From NCBI RefSeq assembly GCF_000487995.2, contig NZ_CP097562.1, forward strand, positions 1,919,001 through 1,983,000: a stretch of 64,000 bases of DNA, in the 5' to 3' direction. This DNA is from Mucispirillum schaedleri ASF457. GTDB lineage: Bacteria; Chrysiogenota; Deferribacteres; Deferribacterales; Mucispirillaceae. A model generated the notes under the pieces. That model saw only the letters and a list, made by a program, of their open reading frames with translations, did no database searches and was not told where the DNA came from. Made by a program: the position numbers and the translations under genes. Of this stretch, positions 15,251 through 28,706 are shown in pieces. Every line of letters begins with the position of its first letter. The first letter of the stretch is position 1.

Positions 15251-16346
15251 ATGTAAGAGTATAAGACATATGTTACAAAAATAAGTATAACAAAATACCT
15301 CTTAGTATATAGTATAAAATTAAGCAAAAAACTAAACTAAACTAAGAGGTATAACAATGAATAAAGTGATAATAACAGAAGAAATGCGATTTCGTCAACG
15401 GTTATGTGAGTATGCATTAAAAAAAGGAGCAACGAAAGCAGCCCGCAAATATCAAGTGAACCGTATGTTTGTATACAGGCATTTAAAGAAATATGATGGA
15501 ACAGTTCAGAGTTTATCTTTTAAAAGTCGTAGACCAAGAACCAGTCCAAATAAGCATAGTAAAGAAGAGCTTGATTTAATATTTAACACATATGCCGAGC
15601 ATGGTTTGTATGGTAATGCGGAGGTATATGTCAGACTTCTAGAAATTGGTTATAATCGTAGTTTTGGCAGTATGTGTATGCAGATAAGGAAGAAAGGCTT
15701 AAAGTCATTAAACAAGTCAAAAAAGAGCTATACAAGATATGAACCAATAACAGGTCAGTATATAGGCGACAAGGTTCAGATAGATATAAAATATGTTCCA
15801 CAGGAATGTATAATGTTTTCCAGCTATGGTAAAAAATATTATCAGATAACAGCGATAGATGAATACAGCAGAATGAGAATATTAGAAATAGTAGAAGAAA
15901 AAAGCACATTTGAAACAGGTAAGTTTTTAGACGAACTGGAAAGTAAATTTGGCTTTCCACTAAAAACAATTCAAGTGGATAATGGCTATGAGTTTGTAAA
16001 TGATAAGGAAGTTACAAACAAGAAAAGCTATTTTGAAGAGACAGCTGAAAAGAAAGGATATACTATTAAACGAATAAGACCTTATTCACCTTGGCAGAAT
16101 GGAAAGGTGGAAAGAAGTCATAGAGAGGATGGAAAAATTTTATATGCAAATAATAAATTCTATTCCAAAGATGAATTAATTAAGGCTCTTAAACAGCATG
16201 AAGATAGATATAATAATACTGCTAAAACATGCTTAAATTTTAAATCTCCATATGAGATTGTTATTGAAAATAAATTATTGCTTGATTTATATTAAATTAA
16301 GATTTATTTTTTATTAAAAATGTAACATATGTCCTGTTAGTTAAGA
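15251..16346 (+). mobile_element. IS481-like element nested inside the IS3-family orfB
   Basis: About 1.1 kb between two perfect 25-bp direct repeats of orfB (15226-15250, 16347-16371). Near each end lies the inverted core GACATATGTTACA (15264-15276 and the complement at 16320-16332). The outermost 12-13 bp of the ends match poorly, so the exact borders are uncertain by a base or two. Confidence 0.85.
15357..16295 (+). CDS. DDE transposase, IS481-like
   Basis: 312 aa. An N-terminal helix-turn-helix (EMRFRQRLCEYALKKGATKAARKYQVNRMFVYRHLKKY) is followed by an rve-type integrase core. Catalytic residues: the first D in VQIDIKYV, the second D in IQVDNGYEF, and the E in KVERSHRED. The motif RIRPYSPWQNGKVERSHRED is typical of IS481. 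AGAGG about 9 nt before ATG 15357. It appears intact, so the nested element may still be active. Confidence 0.88.
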   Translation: MNKVIITEEMRFRQRLCEYALKKGATKAARKYQVNRMFVYRHLKKYDGTVQSLSFKSRRPRTSPNKHSKEELDLIFNTYAEHGLYGNAEVYVRLLEIGYNRSFGSMCMQIRKKGLKSLNKSKKSYTRYEPITGQYIGDKVQIDIKYVPQECIMFSSYGKKYYQITAIDEYSRMRILEIVEEKSTFETGKFLDELESKFGFPLKTIQVDNGYEFVNDKEVTNKKSYFEETAEKKGYTIKRIRPYSPWQNGKVERSHREDGKILYANNKFYSKDELIKALKQHEDRYNNTAKTCLNFKSPYEIVIENKLLLDLY

Positions 16347-16371
16347 CTATATTTTTGAATTTGTTAATATA
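16347..16371 (+). repeat. Right copy of 25-bp direct repeat flanking nested IS
   Basis: Identical to 15226-15250. orfB coding changes to nonsense (VLTNRTYV..) immediately after it, which proves the point of insertion. Confidence 0.9.
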
Positions 16372-17063
16372 AACCAATTCACATTTTAAAGTAGCAAAGA
16401 AACTTTCCATAACAGCATTATCATAGCAGTTGCCACGCCTTGACATACTCTGCTCTATATTATTTTCCTTTAATAACTTTCTAAATTGATTAGCCTGATA
16501 TAATATACCCTGGTCTGAATGTATCATTAACCCTGTTGTATCTTTTGTTTTATCTATTGCCTGTTTTAAATTATCTATTACCATTTCTTCATTATTATAT
16601 TTGCTTACACTGTATGCTGTTATTTCTCTGTTATACAAATCCATTATTGCTGATAAATACACCTTTTCATTATTAATTTTTATCTCTGCCACATCTGTTA
16701 CCCATTTTAAACATGGTTTCTCACTTGTAAAGGCTCTGTTTAATTTATTGCTGCATATATGACTTACTCTGCCTTGTTTATACCTTTTCTTAACCCTGAT
16801 TATTGATGAAATATTTAATTCCTTCATTAATTTTGCTACTGTCTTCCTGTCATAAGTATAACCCAGTTTCTCTAATGCCTTTGTTATTCTTGGATAGCCG
16901 TAAGTCTTGTTAGATTTTTCATATATTTCTAATATATATGCCTTGACTTCTGCATATTTATCTAATGCAGCAGGCTTTTTAACATTATAATAGTAAGTGC
17001 TTCTTTTCATATTACTCACAGACAACAGGATATCCAAACTGTAATACAGCCTTAATGCAGTTA

Positions 17064-17847: not shown

Positions 17848-18168
17848 TTAATTAGTGTTTTTCCACATCATTTTAGCAAGCTCTATAATATCTTCTGATG
17901 GGAAAGCATCTACTAAATTATCAGCTTTTTCTCCGTCAAGATTTTTTATGACATTTTTTAACTCTTTATTAACTTCTTCAACACTTTCAAGTTTAAATTC
18001 GCTTGAATTTCTATTCATTTGAGCAGAAAGAAGTCTTATGTCATAAATATCACTAAAGCTTACTTTTTCAGCTTTGTTTCTCTCCACTTTTTTATCGTTT
18101 TGAGACCCGCGGTATGCGGAATCACTCAAACTTGTATCTATTTTAGATACTTTGTTAATATTATCCAT
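17848..18168 (-). CDS. Flagellin-linked small protein, copy A
   Basis: 106 aa. Start set at ATG 18168 because the paralogues begin M[DG]N..KVS.ID, and GGGCGGG lies upstream; ATG 18174 is the alternative. The N-terminus (MDNINKVSKIDTSLS) and the mid motif VSFSDIYDIR are shared with the gene after the third flagellin. The C-terminal half is helical (ESVEEVNKELKNVIKNL). No signal peptide, cysteine cluster or known domain is seen. Situated 72 nt after the minus-strand flagellin with a hairpin between. Function unknown; a flagellin chaperone, an anti-sigma-like factor or a secreted filament accessory are all possible. Confidence 0.8.
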   Translation of the reverse strand: MDNINKVSKIDTSLSDSAYRGSQNDKKVERNKAEKVSFSDIYDIRLLSAQMNRNSSEFKLESVEEVNKELKNVIKNLDGEKADNLVDAFPSEDIIELAKMMWKNTN

Positions 18169-18200
18169 AAGCATACCCGCCCTTTTATATTACTTAACCT

Positions 18201-18239: not shown

Positions 18240-20546
18240 TTATGCTAATAAAGTCATTGCATAATTAGGGATTTGGTTAGCCTGTGCAAGCATTGCAGTA
18301 GCTGACTGCATTAATACCTGCTGTGCTGCTAAATCACTAGATGCAGTAGCAATATCTAAGTCACGGATACGGCTTTCAGCAGCAATCATATTTTCCCTTG
18401 TAGTATTAAGGTTAGTAATAGTGTATTCCAGCCTGTTTATTTGAGCACCTGCTGTTGCTCTTGATTTTGAGATTTGTTCAAGTGCTAAATCAAGTTTAGT
18501 AATAGATGACTGTGCGTCATCAAAAGTTGCAACATTAACATCATTAATACCCATAGATTTAGTATCAAGCCTGCCAATAGATATATCTAATGTCTGACCT
18601 TCGTTTGCACCTATTGCTGCTTTTGTTGCATTATCTGTAATATGCAGGAATGTGCTGTTTGTGCCTGATTTTGCTTTAAATTCCATAGTGTTAGAAGCAG
18701 TATTAAATATAATATCTGCAGCAGATGATGGAGTAATATCAATATCTACACCTTCTATTACATTACGAAGTCTGCCGTCAGTAATAGTATCTTCTCCAAC
18801 AAAAGCGCCAGTATTAGCATTTTGAACAGATACTGTTAATGCTGAGTCTGTTGCTTTTTGAGTTTGAGTAACACCAAGTGCATTTAAAATACCTTCATCA
18901 CCAACAAATGTTAAATTAGAATCTTTTCCTAATACTGCACCTTGAATTGTGAATGAGCCAGCACTTGCACCATTTGTGCCATCATTTTCAGTAAACTGAA
19001 CTAAATTTTTATTAACAGATGCAGAAGCAGAACTGCCATTTGGAGCACCCATGTTAAGCTGGTCAATAATAGCAGAATTTAATTTATTTTTTAAATCTTC
19101 TATTGTATCACTGCCTTCAAGGATAACTTTTGCCACATTACCATTTCCGCCATATATACTGATTTCTTGTGTATTATCAAGCACCATTCTACCGTCTGCA
19201 TTGGTAAACTGTGCAAGCTGAGAAAGTTTTGTATATTTAGAAGCTACATCACCTTCGCCTAATATATCTATTGTGGCTGTGCCTGATACTATTTTGCCTT
19301 TTTCAAGTGTTACATCCATTGAGCCGTAATATACATTTCCTGCTTTATCCATTTGTGAAGTATAAATTGTATGAGTTGTTGCAGTAGCAGAGTTTGTTGC
19401 ACCAGCTGTAATATGTAATGTGGAGCCTGTTGAACCAACTTTGATTGTTGCTCCACTTGTTGAGCCTGCTCTACCAGCTGCTACATTTACAAGCATTTTA
19501 TCTCCGTCATTCCATGCAGCAGTTCCAAATGTTGCTGTGCCGCTGCCTGCAAAAATCCTGCTTGCTATTCCTGCAAGATTACTAAATGAGTTTGAGCTTG
19601 TAACGCCAGCAACACCACCAGTGGAAGCTACATTTGCAGAAGCCCATTCACTTAATTCACCAGTTTTTGTATTCATTACACGGAAACGGATTTGACCTGT
19701 GCCATTTGCTGACCTGTCTCCTACTGCTTCTATTTCTATTGAATATGAGTTTGCACCAGTTGCTGCAGCACTAGCAGAAGCAAAGCTTGTTACAGTTATG
19801 TTTGACATACCGCCTGTTCCCCCAGTAAGTGAAGCAGAACCTGCTGTTACTGCTCCTGAGCCTTTAACTGTTACTGTAATACCTGCTGTTGACATATCAA
19901 CAGTTCTAAGCATACCTTGAATGTTATCAAATTTTGTTATGCTTGTGCCGTTTGTTGTAATATCGTATGACATATTGCCTTTGCCAAGTGTCATCATATT
20001 AGATTTGTAAACTGAGTTTTTACCGGGGTCTAATGTATAATTTATTTTATAATCACCGGCAGCAGGAGCACCTTTAATAATTGCTTCAATATCGCCGCTT
20101 GATGCTGACCAGATAGCTGCTGCATCACCATTTAAAAGTTTTTTAGTGTTGAACTCTGTTGATGATGATACACGGTCAATTTCCTGTTTCAACTGGTCTA
20201 CTTCAAGCTGTAACATTGCTCTATCATTAGAAGTATAAGCTGGGTCGCCTGCCTGAACTGCAAGCTCTCTTATACGCTGAACCATAGATGTCATTGAGCC
20301 CATTGCACCCTCTGCTGTCTGTAACATACTTATTGCATCTTGAGAGTTTGTTGCTGCTTTTGCAAGACCAGAAATCTGTCCTCTTAATTTTTCTGATACT
20401 GCCAAGCCTGAAGCATCATCTGAAGCTGAGTTTATTCTTAAACCAGTAGATAATGCTTTTAATGTTTTTGTTAAACTGTTATTAGCATTGTTAACGCTGC
20501 TTTGAGCGCCTATTGCTGTTGAGTTATTGATAATTGAAATAGCCAT
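18240..20546 (-). CDS. Flagellin 1 (768 aa, large variable domain)
   Basis: The D0/D1 termini are conserved. N-terminus: INNSTAIGAQSSVNNANNSL, then LSTGLRINSASDDASGLAVS and MVQRIRELAVQAGDPAYTSND. C-terminus: RIRDLDIATASSDLAAQQVL to IPNYAMTLLA. The QRIREL segment is the region that in other flagellins contacts TLR5. The centre (about residues 170-650) is a long Ser/Thr/Ala/Gly-rich surface domain, so the protein is about 1.5-2 times the size of many flagellins. GGAGG is 9 nt before the ATG. It is divergent in its centre from the two plus-strand flagellins while its ends are nearly the same. Exported by the flagellar type III system. Confidence 0.96.
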   Translation of the reverse strand: MAISIINNSTAIGAQSSVNNANNSLTKTLKALSTGLRINSASDDASGLAVSEKLRGQISGLAKAATNSQDAISMLQTAEGAMGSMTSMVQRIRELAVQAGDPAYTSNDRAMLQLEVDQLKQEIDRVSSSTEFNTKKLLNGDAAAIWSASSGDIEAIIKGAPAAGDYKINYTLDPGKNSVYKSNMMTLGKGNMSYDITTNGTSITKFDNIQGMLRTVDMSTAGITVTVKGSGAVTAGSASLTGGTGGMSNITVTSFASASAAATGANSYSIEIEAVGDRSANGTGQIRFRVMNTKTGELSEWASANVASTGGVAGVTSSNSFSNLAGIASRIFAGSGTATFGTAAWNDGDKMLVNVAAGRAGSTSGATIKVGSTGSTLHITAGATNSATATTHTIYTSQMDKAGNVYYGSMDVTLEKGKIVSGTATIDILGEGDVASKYTKLSQLAQFTNADGRMVLDNTQEISIYGGNGNVAKVILEGSDTIEDLKNKLNSAIIDQLNMGAPNGSSASASVNKNLVQFTENDGTNGASAGSFTIQGAVLGKDSNLTFVGDEGILNALGVTQTQKATDSALTVSVQNANTGAFVGEDTITDGRLRNVIEGVDIDITPSSAADIIFNTASNTMEFKAKSGTNSTFLHITDNATKAAIGANEGQTLDISIGRLDTKSMGINDVNVATFDDAQSSITKLDLALEQISKSRATAGAQINRLEYTITNLNTTRENMIAAESRIRDLDIATASSDLAAQQVLMQSATAMLAQANQIPNYAMTLLA

Positions 20547-20734
20547 ATTAATATCCTCCGTGAATACAGCTTATACAAACTTTACATATTCATCCTTGAT
20601 ATGTAAGCTGCATTTTATTTAGTAAAAAATGCCCGCCAAAGCATATTTTTACTAATATTTTCCTTGCATAGATATTGTATAGTAATATCAGACTTAGAGT
20701 ATTATTTTACTTTTCTTTCTTCTCATCTCCTTAA

Positions 20735-20774
20735 CAAAACAAAAAAAGCCGCATCAGTGTTAACTAATGCGGCT
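20735..20774 (-). terminator. Intrinsic terminator upstream of flagellin 1
   Basis: Minus-strand stem AGCCGCAT (20774-20767) / ATGCGGCT (20754-20747) followed by TTTTTTT. It lies about 190 nt before the flagellin 1 start, with no gene ending there. Confidence 0.85.
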
Positions 20775-20955
20775 CAATTGTGTTGATACATACATTTATA
20801 TTTATAAATATTCAATAATAAATGTTTCAACAGCTTTATCATATATATAATATGTATAACTAACTATGCTTAAATATTTTATTTATATGCAGATAAATAT
20901 GAATAATATACATACTTCATAAACAAATACTGATTAAAGCATAGTGATTAAACAT

Positions 20956-21160
20956 AAAAAAAACCAAGACACAGGGTATAATCCTGCCTTGGCTCATATA
21001 TTTTGATACCATATTTCAATGTAATATAAGCTATTCATCCACTAATAACTTACAATGCTAAGCTGTTTAAACAAACTTAGCGAAAGAAACCCCCTGATTT
21101 CACTGGCAGGTTCTTATTCGCTCCATATATATATGCAGTTTACGCACATGCTGCATATTT
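20956..21160 (-). ncRNA. Candidate structured non-coding RNA with own terminator
   Basis: On the minus strand, a TATAAT-like box (about 21173-21168) is followed by four hairpins. First: ATATGCAG/CTGCATAT (21158-21131). Second: a long stem closed by AGCGAA/TTCGCT (21122-21079). Third: GCTAAG/CTTAGC (21081-21057), which shares 3 nt with the second, so the two compete. Fourth: a terminator hairpin CCAAG../..CTTGG (20992-20964) with an eight-T run. CCTGCC in the second hairpin (21110-21105) is exactly complementary to GGCAGG in the terminator arm (20988-20983). No reading frame of note. Could be an sRNA or a switch-like leader. No -35 box was recognised. Confidence 0.5.
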
Positions 21161-21516
21161 TAAACATATTATACACACGCATAGTATAATATATATAATA
21201 TTTTATATATTTTTTTATAAATTGCAATATTTTTTTTGGTGATACCAGTATATTTTTTTAAATCCACTCATTTTTAAGATACTTTGCTTAAAAATCAAGT
21301 TCAGCATGACATAAGTTGAAGTGTATAAATGCTCTATTTAACTTTGTATATTTTTTAATGCAAAAGTATTTTTATATTGTATATATTTTTGATATACTAA
21401 AATATGTATTCCTGAGTGAGTATCAACGAGCGAAGGAACTATTAATATTATAGATTATACTATTTTAGATACTTCGCCTTTGGTTCAGCATTGACATAAT
21501 TTTTTTAAAAAAATTC

Positions 21517-21601: not shown

Positions 21602-21628
21602 TAAACTTATTTAAAATATTTCCGATAA
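21602..21628 (+). promoter_or_regulatory. Sigma-28-like promoter 2
   Basis: TAAA (21602-21605), 15-bp spacer, TCCGATAA (21621-21628). One mismatch to the FliA consensus. A short transcript from here would end at the terminator 21695-21734, about 100 nt long. Confidence 0.7.
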
Positions 21629-21694
21629 AGAAAATGTGTAAGGAAATTATAAAGAATTAAAAATTGATTTTAACATAAAGGCATCAAAAAAATT

Positions 21695-21734
21695 GAGCTG
21701 GTAGAGATTATCTCTTTATCAGCTCTTTTTTTTT
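21695..21734 (+). terminator. Intrinsic terminator downstream of sigma-28-like promoters
   Basis: GAGCTG..CAGCTC stem with inner AGA/TCT pairing, then eight Ts. No coding gene precedes it on this strand within 1 kb. Confidence 0.88.
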
Positions 21735-21828
21735 AAACAGTCAGTATTATTGTTAAATAGATAGTTATTATTCTTAATGTGATGTTTTTTATATTTTAAA
21801 TATGATTATATCGGTATTAAACCAATTA

Positions 21829-21867
21829 AGCCGGCTTTATGTTTTTGCATAATGTCGGCTTTTTTTA
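21829..21867 (+). terminator. Second intrinsic terminator upstream of flagellin 2
   Basis: AAGCCG (21829-21834) pairs with CGGCTT, then seven Ts. The preceding sequence (GGTATTAAACCAATTAAGCC) resembles that before the terminator at 25927 upstream of flagellin 3. Confidence 0.85.
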
Positions 21868-22475: not shown

Positions 22476-22535
22476 AAAGCTTTTCATTATAGTTGGAAGG
22501 ATAATGATTAAGCATATTTCATGGAGGATAAAATT

Positions 22536-24830
22536 ATGGCTCTTTCAATAGTTAATAACTCAACAGCAATAGGCGCTCAAAGCAGCGTTAACAATGCTAA
22601 TAATAACTTAACAAAAACAATTAAATCATTATCAACTGGTTTAAGAATTAACTCTGCATCAGACGACGCATCAGGTTTAGCAGTATCAGAAAAATTAAGA
22701 GCACAGATTTCTGGTTTAAACAAAGCAGCAACAAATGCTCAAGATGCAATAAGTATGTTACAGACAGCAGAGGGAGCAATGGGCTCAATGACATCTATGG
22801 TTCAGCGTATAAGAGAGCTTGCAGTTCAGGCAGGCGACCCAGCTTATACTTCTAATGATAGAGCAATGTTACAGCTTGAAGTAGACCAGTTGAAACAGGA
22901 AATTGACCGTGTATCATCATCAACAGAGTTTAACACTAAAAAACTTTTAAATGGTGATGCAGCTGCATTATGGTCAGCATCTAATGGTGATATTGAAGCT
23001 ATTATTAAAGGTGCCGCAGCAGAAGGCAACTATAAAATATCTTATGATGTAGACCCAGGTCAAAACTCAGTATATAAATCAAATATTATGCGTCTTGGCG
23101 AAGGTGAAATGTCATATGACATAAATACAAATGGCACAAGCATAACAAAATTTGATAATATTCAAGGTATGCTTCGTGGCAGTGATATGACTATTAAAGT
23201 TAAAGGCACAGCAGCAACAACAGCTTCAGCAGTATTTACTGGTGGAACAGGCGGCATGAATTCTGCTGCAATGACAGCAGCTGGCTTTACATCAACAGCA
23301 TTAGCAACAGTAACTGGTGGAAACTCATATTCAATAGAATTTGAAGCAGTAGGAGACAGGTCAGCAAGCGGCACAGGTCAAATCCGTTTCCGTGTAATGA
23401 ATACTAAAACTGGCGAATTAAGTGAGTGGAAAACAGCATCAGTTAATAGTGCAGGGGCAGTGCTAAATGCATCAGCAATATCAACTGGTTTAGCAGGTCT
23501 TGATAAACCTGTTCTGACATCAGCTGCTACAACTTTTACAGCAACAGCAGCTTGGACAAGTGGAGATAAAATGCTTGTAAATGTTGCAGGTGTAAGAGCT
23601 TCAAGCTCAACTTCAGCAACTATTCAGATAGGCTCAACAGGCTCTACTTTACATATTAATGCAGATGCAACTAATTCTGCTACTGCTACAACCCATACTG
23701 TTTACACATCCCAAATGGATAATGCAGGTAATGTATATTACGGCTCAATGGATATAAAATTTGAAAAAGGTGCTATAGTATCAGGCACAGCATCAATAGA
23801 TATATTAGGCGAAGGTGATGTGGCTTCTAAATATACAAAACTTTCTCAGCTTGCACAGTTTACTAATGCAGATGGCAGAATGGTTCTTGATAATACACAA
23901 GAAATCAGCATATATGCAGGCAATGGCAAAACAGCTAAAGTTACACTTGAAGGCAGCGACACAATAGCAGATTTAGAAAGCAAATTAACAGCAGCGTTAG
24001 TTGACCAGCTTGGTATGGGAGCAGATGTAACAAATACAAGTGCAACAACAGTTAATAACAACCTTGTAAAATTTGTAGAAGATACAAGTTCTGGAGACAG
24101 GGCAGTAGCTGGCACATTTGTAATACAAGGTGCAGTATTAGGTAGTGACTCTAATCTTACATTTGTAGGTGATGAAGGTGTGCTTAATGCGTTAGGTATC
24201 ACTCAAATCCAAAAAGCAAGCGACTCAGCATTAAATGTAAGAGTGCAGGATGCCCACACTGGAGCATTTATAGGTGAAGATACAGTAACAGATGGAAGAC
24301 TTCGTAATGTCATACAAGGTGTAGATATTGATATTAAACCAGAATCTGCAACTAATATATCATTTGATACAGCAAGCAATACAATGAAATTTCTTGCTAA
24401 AGGCGAGCCAACAGTAGCATATCTTCACATTAAAGATAACTCAACAGTGGCAGCAATAGGTGCTAATGAAGGTCAAACATTAGATATATCTATAGGCAGA
24501 CTTGATACAAAATCTATGGAAATAGATGGTATCACAGTAGCTACACTGGAAGATTCGCAAAAAGCAATAACAAAACTTGATATGGCATTAGAGCAAATAT
24601 CAAAAGCAAGAGCAACAGCAGGTGCTCAAATGAATAGGTTAGAATATACTATCAGCAACCTGAATACAACAAGGGAAAACATGGTAGCAGCAGAAAGCCG
24701 TATCCGTGACTTAGATATAGCTGTAGCTTCTACTAATTTAGCGGCACAACAGGTAGTTCTCCAATCAGCAACTGCAATGCTTGCGCAGGCTAACCAAATC
24801 CCAAGCTATGCAATGCAGTTATTAGGCTAG
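22536..24830 (+). CDS. Flagellin 2 (764 aa)
   Basis: Start at ATG 22536 (MALSIVNNSTAIGAQ) behind GGAGG; an upstream ATG at 22521 contains the ribosome site and is rejected. D0/D1 ends as in flagellin 1: RIRELAVQAGDPAYT in the N-part, RIRDLDIAVASTNLAAQQVV near the C-end, final SYAMQLLG. The centre is a Thr/Ala/Ser-rich domain, nearly identical over long stretches to flagellin 3 and exactly the same length, but clearly different from flagellin 1. Exported filament subunit. Terminator at 24848-24876. Confidence 0.96.
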   Translation: MALSIVNNSTAIGAQSSVNNANNNLTKTIKSLSTGLRINSASDDASGLAVSEKLRAQISGLNKAATNAQDAISMLQTAEGAMGSMTSMVQRIRELAVQAGDPAYTSNDRAMLQLEVDQLKQEIDRVSSSTEFNTKKLLNGDAAALWSASNGDIEAIIKGAAAEGNYKISYDVDPGQNSVYKSNIMRLGEGEMSYDINTNGTSITKFDNIQGMLRGSDMTIKVKGTAATTASAVFTGGTGGMNSAAMTAAGFTSTALATVTGGNSYSIEFEAVGDRSASGTGQIRFRVMNTKTGELSEWKTASVNSAGAVLNASAISTGLAGLDKPVLTSAATTFTATAAWTSGDKMLVNVAGVRASSSTSATIQIGSTGSTLHINADATNSATATTHTVYTSQMDNAGNVYYGSMDIKFEKGAIVSGTASIDILGEGDVASKYTKLSQLAQFTNADGRMVLDNTQEISIYAGNGKTAKVTLEGSDTIADLESKLTAALVDQLGMGADVTNTSATTVNNNLVKFVEDTSSGDRAVAGTFVIQGAVLGSDSNLTFVGDEGVLNALGITQIQKASDSALNVRVQDAHTGAFIGEDTVTDGRLRNVIQGVDIDIKPESATNISFDTASNTMKFLAKGEPTVAYLHIKDNSTVAAIGANEGQTLDISIGRLDTKSMEIDGITVATLEDSQKAITKLDMALEQISKARATAGAQMNRLEYTISNLNTTRENMVAAESRIRDLDIAVASTNLAAQQVVLQSATAMLAQANQIPSYAMQLLG

Positions 24831-25487: not shown

Positions 25488-25605
25488 AAGCAATATATAA
25501 GTATATGTTTACACACAGAGCCTTATTTATATTATATCTGCTTGAATATGCAAGGGATATAATGTATTGCTGGTGTAAATTTTAGATTTTTGTATCAAAA
25601 TAATT

Positions 25606-25644
25606 GGGCTGAAAAACTAACTTGTTTTATCAGTCTTTTTTTGT
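25606..25644 (+). terminator. Terminator after small gene B
   Basis: GGCTGA / TCAGTC stem (one G-T pair) extended by AAAC/GTTT, followed by seven Ts. 118 nt beyond the small gene. Confidence 0.75.
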
Positions 25645-25926
25645 TGACAAAATTATATATAAGGATTATAAGTAAATTAATATCGGTTATGATATTAAGA
25701 AACTTTAATAAAAATAATGCTTTGCATGAAAATATGACGACCAAAGTATTTAAAATATAGTCACTCTGAATGAAGTGAAGAGACTAAAATTTATATTAAA
25801 CTGTGAAATTTAGATTCTTTGCCTTTTTTAAAGGCTAAGAATGATATACAAGTAGTTAATAATAAGAGTTGCAAGGACAAAATTTTTAATAAAAGTTATA
25901 AAATTTAAAATGGTATTAATACAATT

Positions 25927-25964
25927 AAGCCACTATCAAGGTTATCCTTTTTAGTGGTTTTTTT
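25927..25964 (+). terminator. Intrinsic terminator upstream of flagellin 3
   Basis: AAGCCACTA (25927-25935) pairs with TAGTGGTTT (25952-25960), followed by Ts. No gene ends nearby; it parallels the terminator at 21829. Confidence 0.85.
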
Positions 25965-26363
25965 ATTTAAATTATTTATAGATTTTTGCTGTATGATTAG
26001 AATAGATATTCTACTTTAATAGTATATTACTTTCTATTCATGCGAAAAAAATCTAAAATTAATATAATATTAATAATTAATGAGGTGAAAGAAAAAAGGA
26101 TACACTTACTTTTTATCAAGGTTTAGCTTTTTACCATAAAATAAGCAAATGAAAGGACGAGTTTTTAAGCCTTACTGTATGAAGAATATATGTATTTTGA
26201 ATATGCACTTTATAATAAAGCATGAAAGCCCTGCTGGCTTTATCAAAATAAGCAAAATAACATACAGTAAATGTGTATTAAGGGTAGTTTATTCCATTGT
26301 AAATTAAATACACTTGGCTTTTAAGTATCCATATTTGGCGGTATGGTGCTTAAAGAAACATAC

Positions 26364-26381
26364 AGGCATGGAAGCCTGTAT
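26364..26381 (+). promoter_or_regulatory. Flagellin 3 leader hairpin
   Basis: ACAGGC / GCCTGT stem with a short loop, about 18 nt before the ribosome site. Comparable leader hairpins precede flagellins 1 and 2. Confidence 0.5.
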
Positions 26382-26411
26382 AAAAAAGAGTTTATCAGGG
26401 AGGATAATATT

Positions 26412-28706
26412 ATGGCTCTTTCAATTATTAACAACTCAACAGCAATAGGTGCTCAAAGCAGCGTTAACAATGCTAATAATAATTTAACCAAAACGATTAA
26501 AGCTTTATCTACTGGTTTAAGAATCAATTCTGCATCAGATGATGCATCAGGTTTAGCAGTATCTGAAAAATTAAGAGCACAGATTTCTGGTTTAAACAAA
26601 GCAGCAACAAATGCTCAAGATGCAATAAGTATGTTACAGACAGCAGAAGGAGCAATGGGCTCAATGACATCTATGGTTCAGCGTATAAGAGAGCTTGCAG
26701 TTCAGGCAGGCGACCCAGCTTATACTTCTAATGACCGTGCAATGCTTCAGCTTGAAGTAGACCAGTTGAAACAAGAAATTGACCGTGTATCAACATCAAC
26801 AGAATTTAACACTAAAAAACTTTTAAATGGTGACGCAGCTGCATTATGGTCAGCATCTAATGGTAATATTGAAGCTATTGTAAAAGGTGCTGCAGCAGAA
26901 GGCAACTATAAAGTATCTTACGATTTAGACCCAGGTAGAAATGCAGTATACAAATCAAATATTATGCGTCTTGGCGAAGGTGAAATGTCATATAATATTG
27001 ACACAAACGGCACAAGCATAACAAAATTTGATAATATTCAAGGTATGCTTCGTGGCAGTGATATGACTATTAAAGTTAAAGGCACAGCGGCGACAACAGC
27101 ATCAGCAGTATTTACTGGCGGAACAGGCGGCATGAATTCTGCTGCAATGACAGCAGCTGGCTTTACATCAACAGCATTAGCAACAGTAACTGGTGGAAAC
27201 TCATATTCAATAGAATTTGAAGCATTAGGTAAAAGAACAGCAAGCGGCACAGGTCAAATCCGTTTCCGTGTAATGAATACTAAAACTGGCGAATTAAGTG
27301 AGTGGAAAACAGCATCAGTTAATAGTGCAGGGGCAGTGCTAAATGCATCAGCAATATCAACTGGTTTAGCAGGTCTTGATAAACCTGTTCTGACATCAGC
27401 TGCTACAACTTTTACAGCAACAGCAGCTTGGATAAGTGGAGATAAAATGCTTGTGAATGTTGCAGGTGTAAGAGCTTCAAGCTCAACTTCAGCAACCATT
27501 CAGATAGGCTCAACAGGCTCTACTTTACATATTAATGCAGATGCAACCAATTCTGCTACTGCTACAACACATACTGTTTATACATCTCAAATGGATGATG
27601 CAGGTAATGTATATTACGGCTCAATGGATATAAAACTTGAAAAAGGTGATGTAGTATCAGGCACAGCATCAATAGATATATTGGGTGCAGGCGATGTAGC
27701 TTCTAAATATACAAAACTTTCTCAGCTTGCACAGTTTACCAATGCAGACGGCAGAATGGTTCTTGATAATACACAAGAAATCAGCATATATGCAGGCAAT
27801 GGCAAAACAGCTAAAGTTACACTTGAAGGCAGCGACACAATAGCAGATTTAGAAAGCAAATTAACAGCAGCGTTAGTTGACCAGCTTGGTATGGGAGCAG
27901 ATGTAACAAATACAAGTGCAACAACAGTTAATAATAACCTTGTAAAATTTGTAGAAACAAAAGGCACAGGCGATAGAGCGGTGGCTGGCACATTTGTAAT
28001 ACAAGGTGCAGTATTAGGCGATTCTTCTAACCTTACATTTGTAGGTGATGAAGGTGTGCTTAATGCATTAGGTATAAACCAAATCCAAAAAGCAACCGAT
28101 TCTGCATTAAATGTTAGAGTGCAGGATGCCCACACTGGAGCATTTATAGGTGAAGATACAGTAACAGACGGCAGACTTCGCAATATCATAGAAGGTGTAG
28201 ATATTGATATCATTCCATCTTCAGCTGCTGATATTGCATTTGATACAGCAACAAATACAATGAAATTTCTTGCTAAAGCTGAGCCAGAAGTAGCATATCT
28301 TCATATTAAAGATAACTCAACAGTAGCTGCAATAGGTGCCAATGAAGGTCAAACATTAGATATATCTATAGGCAGACTTGACACAAAATCTATGGGTATT
28401 GATGGTGTTAATGTTGCAACTTTTGATGATGCACAAAGCTCTATCACAAAACTTGATATGGCATTAGAGCAAATATCAAAAGCAAGAGCAACAGCAGGTG
28501 CTCAAATGAACAGGTTAGAATATACTATCAGCAACCTGAATACAACAAGAGAAAATATGGTAGCAGCAGAAAGCCGTATCCGTGACTTAGATATAGCTGT
28601 GGCTTCTACTAATTTAGCTGCACAACAGGTATTAATGCAGTCAGCAACTGCAATGCTTGCGCAGGCTAACCAAATCCCAAGTTATGCAATGCAGTTATTA
28701 GGATAA
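26412..28706 (+). CDS. Flagellin 3 (764 aa)
   Basis: ATG 26412 (MALSIINNSTAIGAQ) after GGGAGG; an in-frame ATG at 26343 lies before the ribosome site and is not used. Same D0/D1 ends as the other flagellins. The central domain is close to identical to flagellin 2 over many stretches, including silent positions, with scattered differences (EALGKRTASG versus EAVGDRSASG; ETKGTGDRAV versus EDTSSGDRAV). Toward the end (MGIDGVNVATFDDAQSSITKLD) it matches flagellin 1 better than flagellin 2, a mosaic pattern. Followed by a hairpin and small gene C. Confidence 0.96.
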   Translation: MALSIINNSTAIGAQSSVNNANNNLTKTIKALSTGLRINSASDDASGLAVSEKLRAQISGLNKAATNAQDAISMLQTAEGAMGSMTSMVQRIRELAVQAGDPAYTSNDRAMLQLEVDQLKQEIDRVSTSTEFNTKKLLNGDAAALWSASNGNIEAIVKGAAAEGNYKVSYDLDPGRNAVYKSNIMRLGEGEMSYNIDTNGTSITKFDNIQGMLRGSDMTIKVKGTAATTASAVFTGGTGGMNSAAMTAAGFTSTALATVTGGNSYSIEFEALGKRTASGTGQIRFRVMNTKTGELSEWKTASVNSAGAVLNASAISTGLAGLDKPVLTSAATTFTATAAWISGDKMLVNVAGVRASSSTSATIQIGSTGSTLHINADATNSATATTHTVYTSQMDDAGNVYYGSMDIKLEKGDVVSGTASIDILGAGDVASKYTKLSQLAQFTNADGRMVLDNTQEISIYAGNGKTAKVTLEGSDTIADLESKLTAALVDQLGMGADVTNTSATTVNNNLVKFVETKGTGDRAVAGTFVIQGAVLGDSSNLTFVGDEGVLNALGINQIQKATDSALNVRVQDAHTGAFIGEDTVTDGRLRNIIEGVDIDIIPSSAADIAFDTATNTMKFLAKAEPEVAYLHIKDNSTVAAIGANEGQTLDISIGRLDTKSMGIDGVNVATFDDAQSSITKLDMALEQISKARATAGAQMNRLEYTISNLNTTRENMVAAESRIRDLDIAVASTNLAAQQVLMQSATAMLAQANQIPSYAMQLLG

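Follow-up and report, generated by a model that had tools for sequence, protein, structure and literature searches.

Flagellin genes and the fla1 leader RNA

The window analysed here is a stretch of 64,000 nt from Mucispirillum schaedleri ASF457 (NZ_CP097562.1, positions 1,919,001 to 1,983,000), which has a genome of 2.35 Mb in one contig. It carries the flagellin genes fla1, fla2 and fla3, each preceded by two terminators (Table 1). A flaG-like gene lies behind fla1; FlgM had been considered for this gene and was dropped, as Pfam gives FlaG, weakly, and the counterpart in a relative (G006) matches PF03646 above the cut-off. Beside the fla1-flaG operon, at 15357–17037 of the window, lie two genes resembling transposases, both with integrase core domains (PF00665).

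Table 1. Positions of leader elements, promoters and genes in the window (hairpin A and the modules are described in the text)
Feature	Position	Strand	Remark
fla1 leader 5' domain, H1–H4	21011..21160	-	core near-invariant in five Mucispirillum genomes, flanks diverge
Hairpin A of fla1 module T1, GGUAUCAAAAUAUAUGAGCC	20991..21010	-	antiterminator-like
Terminator T1 of fla1, stem and U-tract	20956..20996	-	-14.5 kcal/mol; its 5' arm doubles as 3' arm of hairpin A
Hairpin A of fla1 module T2, UGUAUCAACACAAUUGAGCC	20771..20790	-	
Terminator T2 of fla1, stem and U-tract	20739..20775	-	
TGCAAGGA motif	20661..20668	-	common to long flagellin leaders
fla1 flagellin (PF00669, PF00700)	18240..20546	-	behind the leader
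flaG-like gene behind fla1	17848..18174	-	PF03646 E 0.023, below cut-off
σ28-type promoter 1 of fla2, TAAAG-N15-CCGATAA	21517..21543	+	read in the sequence, outside the 1-kb promoter scan
σ28-type promoter 2 of fla2, one mismatch	21602..21628	+	from the promoter scan
fla2 module T1, GGCAUCAAAAAAAUUGAGCU and terminator	21680..21727	+	
fla2 module T2, GGUAUUAAACCAAUUAAGCC and terminator	21813..21863	+	
fla2 flagellin	22521..24830	+	
fla3 module T1, UGUAUCAAAAUAAUUGGGCU and terminator	25591..25638	+	
fla3 module T2, GGUAUUAAUACAAUUAAGCC and terminator	25912..25962	+	
fla3 flagellin	26343..28706	+	94% identity to fla1 across the N-terminal 100 aa

A preliminary description of the minus strand between 20956 and 21160 had reported a structured RNA with tandem hairpins. 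Our fold of this strand forms these hairpins as described (-60.3 kcal/mol, z -1.87), and the overlap claimed for the second and third was found again: H2 (GCGA../..UCGC, 21121–21080) and H3 (GCUAAG../..CUUAGC, 21081–21056) have 2–3 nt in common. The terminators it had named are present at 20996–20956 and, as a second one, at 20775–20746. The observation that no gene directly follows holds up to the terminator at 20774; beyond that second terminator lies the fla1 ATG, at 20546. The RNA at 20956–21160 corresponds to the first 200 nt of the long fla1 flagellin leader.

Since 11 of 200 shuffled sequences folded at least as stably, folding energy alone is modest evidence for this RNA, and stronger evidence comes from its conservation. 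A 261-nt query run against 59 genomes, the one analysed and relatives, found the leader RNA kept in four other Mucispirillum genomes, with strong matches of 89% identity across the whole query in G003 and 84–85% across its core in G006, G007 and G001, so that the structured region is more than a product of chance. The exact leader core was also present in four contigs named Mucispirillum. In all four relatives, as in the window, the RNA lies upstream of, and co-directional with, a flagellin gene behind which a small flaG-like gene is found. The flagellins behind this type of leader measure 764–768 aa in the window and G003 and about 500 aa in G001, G006 and G007, a size gap between syntenic genes that corresponds to a variable region (window 18240–20546 versus L030 2965–4473).

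Several other identities were considered for the RNA. 6S RNA is excluded, as a 6S gene is present elsewhere in the genome (C1:189770–189951, 87.3 bits); the frame of a small ORF in the core (GTG AAA TCA GGG GGT ...) is broken by an indel between relatives, as judged by eye; and a phage origin was dropped since the core is absent from viral contigs. No Rfam family matches the leader RNA, in agreement with the earlier statement that no known class is recognised: above the gathering threshold only a tRNA was found in the window and nothing at seven other loci including the flaG leader, all other matches being sub-threshold.

The 5' domain has an invariant core, CCTGCCAGTGAAATCAGGGGGT and GCTAAGTTTGTTT..ACAGCTTAGC, in the five Mucispirillum genomes, and about 120 nt of the leader are nearly invariant there while the flanks and the terminator vary. 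Such a pattern would suit a metabolite riboswitch with the 5' domain as aptamer and the T1 and T2 terminators as expression platform. However, the comparison covers five sequences of a single genus, in which 5 of 51 pairs are changed on both sides; no informative change is seen in H3 or in the lower part of H2, both of which are conserved, and H4 shows a few changes. The pairing proposed as the switch, CCTGCC with GGCAGG, is complete in the window (6/6) but falls to 4/6, 3/6, 3/6 and 3/6 in the four other genomes, a loss caused by changes in the terminator stem opposite a constant CCTGCC. Moreover, the 5' domain of about 150 nt was seen before one flagellin only, fla1, and other flagellin leaders have the terminator-overlapping element described below without it. 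We therefore regard a riboswitch as very unlikely. Of the two kinds of switch first suggested, riboswitch or attenuator, the attenuator is the one that the data resemble.

The fla1 leader has no recognizable σ28 box, and its promoter is apparently of another type. Together with the additional conserved 5' domain, this suggests that the fla1 copy may have an added input, or that the domain may serve as a separate small RNA. The fla1 promoter region is bordered by a dispersed MITE-like repeat, one copy of which lies at 21247–21400 and, in part, 21155–21199 of the window. This repeat occurs in dozens of copies in the genome, in places in tandem (for example L258), and fuller copies have arms like GTCATTTTGAGCCTGATTTTAAAGGCGAAAAATCTAAA and TTTTAGATACTTCGCTTAAAAATCAAGCTCAGTAAGAC. 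The short sequence GGAGCGA occurs in the fla1 leader, after fla1 T2 in relatives and just past the flaG terminator (L304–L309; L030 at about 2225 and 2573), and is possibly a second motif shared by these leaders. The TGCAAGGA motif, which we take to be a possible CsrA-type site, was also found in the leader of a divergent flagellin without the element (L114), and further in L030 and L048.

A hairpin that shares its 3' arm with the terminator

The 3' end of the fla1 leader RNA, GGTATCAA..GAGCC running into the terminator, recurs elsewhere, and a pattern search found this module in pairs before other flagellin genes. Its upstream part is a hairpin of 20 nt, hereafter hairpin A, composed of GGU, a bulged A, four base pairs around a 5-nt loop, and GCC. 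The last five nucleotides of hairpin A form the foot of the intrinsic terminator stem, so that the two structures cannot both form fully. At fla1 T1 the competing structure is GGUAUCAA..GAGCC (21010–20991), overlapping the terminator foot. It has six of seven pairs in the window and all seven in G001, G006 and G007, the one mismatch being found in the genome analysed and in G003. The overlapping hairpin is repeated at the second fla1 terminator, T2, and the sequence upstream of this second module appears, by eye, able to form a longer hairpin. The suspicion of attenuator logic was thus right in kind, in that a conserved hairpin competes with the terminator, though the pairing is not the one first proposed.

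We examined whether base pairing or sequence is conserved in hairpin A. In an alignment of 28 module segments (A4), pairing in hairpin A reached 98.0%, and three of its pairs showed changes on both sides, as did nine of eleven terminator pairs. In a larger set (A5), 98.9% of 378 cells were paired across 54 distinct segments, compared with 16–53% when the pairing frame was slid, and 67 cells were changed on both sides against a shuffled mean of 17.7; these values refer to 54 of 55 distinct segments, as one (G031 at -595, UGUA/UACA, fully paired) was dropped by hand. Covariation, called for at the outset as a check, is therefore found in the terminator-overlapping hairpin, whereas H2 and H3 are mostly without informative changes among their five sequences. 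Among the inner stems are UCAA/UUGA, UUAA/UUAA, UUGA/UCAA, CUGA/UCAG, CUGA/UCGG, CUAA/UUAG and UCGA/UCGG, to which the copies before flaG add UUGC/GUAA and UUAC/GUAA.

Both A4 and A5 were picked with the hairpin in mind, and two further scans were each freed of one selection criterion, either the inner pairs or the terminator. With no requirement for inner pairs, the forward strand yielded 59 GGY..GCY candidates directly next to a terminator and the reverse strand none, against five candidates in ten shuffles of all regions. All four inner pairs were present in 58 of these 59, and the remaining one, fla1 T1 of the window, had three. Among loop spacings of 3–8 nt, only the 5-nt spacing was occupied, except for a single 6-nt case that lacked pairing. 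Dropping the terminator requirement instead gave 66 hairpins on the forward strand and none on the reverse; 56 of them were followed by a terminator of the strict scan, the arm of which began exactly at hairpin nucleotide 16 in 47 cases. The ten hairpins without such a terminator include T1 of G031, where the U-tract is visibly lost.

Certain features of hairpin A hardly vary at all. The bulged nucleotide is A in 64 of 66 hairpins and G in the other two, A occupies loop position 2 in 61 and loop position 4 in 63 of these hairpins, and the U·G pair is kept in 52 of 54 aligned segments, with U-A also occurring at this third position. With so little variation, the bulge, wobble pair and loop resemble a binding site for a protein. 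An inverted repeat downstream of a promoter could alternatively be a DNA operator for a transcription factor, and inner arms such as CTGA-N5-TCAG do resemble a dyad. The changes in the stem, however, preserve pairing rather than letters, which argues for RNA: the half-sites vary freely while remaining paired, even between paralogues of one genome, and a U·G pair is retained. Furthermore, all 66 hairpins were found on the coding strand, and in most of them the 3' arm doubles as the foot of a terminator. We consider a DNA operator hardly credible.

The terminator was more stable than hairpin A in all 62 distinct modules, with medians of -20.5 kcal/mol for the terminator, -2.6 kcal/mol for hairpin A and -11.8 kcal/mol for hairpin A together with the remaining stem. 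This large difference suggests that termination is likely the default and that read-through needs hairpin A to be held. A partner may also be dispensable if hairpin A, which is short enough to form first and whose overlap with the terminator is fixed in geometry, served as a built-in brake on the kinetics of terminator folding, setting a constant share of read-through and so damping flagellin expression. This explanation is unlikely, since at -2.6 kcal/mol hairpin A appears too weak to compete for long with a structure of -20.5 kcal/mol, and a brake would need neither a near-invariant bulged A nor a U·G or U-A third pair nor a 5-nt loop with A2 and A4 across an entire order.

Modules before flagellin and flaG genes across the order

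We analyzed the distribution of the module among the flagellin genes of the phylum, which comprised 141 rows in 47 of 50 genomes; 140 upstream regions were scanned to a depth of at most 1 kb, one gene having no upstream sequence. The strict scan detected the module in 43 of the 140, with one on the reverse strand and 2, 0, 0, 1 and 0 in shuffles. Allowing other standard pairs at the third position raised this to 50 of 140 forward and 3 of 140 reverse (1, 0, 0, 0 and 0 in five dinucleotide shuffles), the module being absent from the other 90 upstream regions in this relaxed scan. At least one module was present in 34 of the 42 genomes of the order with flagellin rows, eight having none. The order is taken to be Deferribacterales from its named Mucispirillum members. 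Seven of its eight families (f1, f2, f3, f4, f6, f7 and f8) have the module; none was found in f5, represented by two flagellins, or in f9 and f10 outside the order, represented by 23.

Genomes were also searched with covariance models. A first model (R1) found matches in 21 of the 45 order genomes, some of them members of other families in which σ28 box, module and flagellin gene stand in succession. A second (R2), slightly blurred because some of the 65 rows from which it was built (A6) are non-module sequences, matched 33 of 45 order genomes at E ≤ 0.001 and 2 of 339 others, both plain terminators (G331 and G050). Further matches of the two models were set aside, namely L135, which lies in a coding frame, L310, a plain terminator, L030, L031 and L032, which lie behind a flaG-like gene (L030 alone was read), and reverse-strand matches, which are palindromic echoes. 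With a wider pattern, matches followed by a terminator precede flagellin genes with one exception, a tRNA end plus terminator in G038, and those without a terminator, mostly in coding frames, were disregarded. An orphan leader consisting of a σ28-like box and a complete module, with other ORFs (L312) and no flagellin behind it, was also observed (L282 527–588; G021:C3:25826–25887).

Next to these modules, σ28-type boxes with at most one mismatch precede the first module in 35 of 43 leaders and follow the last module in 3 of 43; in shuffled versions of these regions, 3 to 10 of 43 had any box. An upstream box is missing in eight leaders, namely the five of fla1, that of fla3 in the genome analysed, that of G040 and one of two or more in G044. 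The gap between the terminator and the flagellin ATG is about 45 nt in G031, a stretch with little space for a promoter. The upstream position of the boxes and this short gap indicate that the module is generally part of the flagellin leader, and by comparison each module sits between promoter and flagellin gene. In Mucispirillum, the module is additionally found before flaG (PF03646, E 5e-8) in this genome and five relatives, behind what appears by eye to be a σ70-like promoter.

The same positions bear on the possibility that the modules are the ends of stand-alone small RNAs, σ28-dependent in general and constitutive at fla1, with flagellin transcribed from another promoter. The fla1 leader up to T1 is indeed a compact, conserved RNA of 200 nt with its own terminator, and σ28-dependent small RNAs of flagellar regulation have been described elsewhere (PMC10578931). 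Nevertheless, this interpretation is quite unlikely for the modules as a group, because boxes downstream of the last module are confined to 3 of 43 leaders, the gap in G031 is about 45 nt, and the constant feature is the position before flagellin or flaG. For fla1 alone, an additional role as a small RNA may apply.

A putative antitermination mechanism and known systems

Taken together, the leaders have a terminator between promoter and gene and a conserved alternative structure, the arrangement by which an attenuator based on intrinsic termination is recognized. Our main reading, to which we assign a probability of roughly 0.6 on comparative sequence evidence, is that the fla1 RNA is the start of a flagellin mRNA leader with two copies of an order-wide, terminator-overlapping attenuator that depends on a factor. 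RNA polymerase coming from the promoter, usually a σ28 promoter, would stop at the terminator by default. A factor, most likely a protein recognizing the bulge, the U·G pair and the loop, would hold hairpin A closed, leaving the terminator without its foot beside the U-tract, and polymerase would then continue into flagellin and flaG. Tandem modules would act as two gates in series. It is about an even bet that this constitutes a so far undescribed, order-specific class of flagellar antitermination, in which an RNA-binding factor must seize the bulged 20-nt hairpin before polymerase can get past one or two terminators and reach flagellin and flaG, as a checkpoint after initiation.

Flagellin is among the costliest proteins of a cell, and its well-known control points are the release of σ28 and translation through CsrA-FliW. 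Gating by a conserved terminator in the flagellin leader would add one more layer of control across an order that includes the mouse gut commensal Mucispirillum. If the proposal is correct, this second, post-initiation checkpoint could report the status of export or of the filament, and the 5' RNA domain of fla1 would provide another input or a separate small RNA. Hairpin A offers a compact RNA target for fishing out a regulator, and the switch is directly testable with deposited M. schaedleri RNA-seq data (BioProject PRJEB13534, cited in PMC5285517).

The idea of a protein-stabilized antiterminator draws on the logic of two known systems, BglG/LicT and ANTAR. In the RAT elements bound by BglG, SacY and LicT, as outlined in PMC9981650 and PMC3369936, the 3' part of a short interrupted hairpin is the foot of the terminator and the two are mutually exclusive; the latter source describes a stem with two asymmetric internal loops. 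The module hairpin likewise excludes the terminator and overlaps its foot, with 47 of 56 arms starting at nucleotide 16, whereas its stem has one bulged A and a 5-nt loop in place of two internal loops, and it precedes flagellin or flaG rather than sugar genes. The CAT_RBD domain (PF03123) was found above the cut-off in none of the 45 order genomes, with one sub-threshold match in G014 and positive results in 4 of 14 control genomes.

For the ANTAR proteins NasR and EutV, PMC3369936 describes a protein-stabilized hairpin that overlaps and shortens the terminator stem, and a requirement for two hairpins, P1 and P2, whose loops carry A1 and G4. The module shares the overlap with the terminator stem but is a single hairpin with a 5-nt loop carrying A2 and A4. 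A search for ANTAR proteins (PF03861) gave no match in the 45 order genomes, and its controls likewise gave none. With no BglG-type domain above the cut-off and a layout other than that of ANTAR, the module is better described as working like these systems than as a member of either.

Premature termination ahead of flagellar genes is also known from c-di-GMP riboswitches, such as that before flgB of C. difficile. The module resembles these in placing a terminator ahead of flagellar genes and differs in consisting of 20 nt plus a terminator, with no Rfam match. CsrA-FliW, too, controls flagellin after initiation through its mRNA. According to PMC4894983, CsrA represses translation through GGA motifs; unlike such sites, the loop of hairpin A has no GGA, and CsrA could act in addition, at TGCAAGGA. 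Within the search wording used, no description of an element like the module was found in the open PMC literature. Overall, we rate attenuation with an antiterminator hairpin as a known kind of control, and this RNA family and its targets as new.
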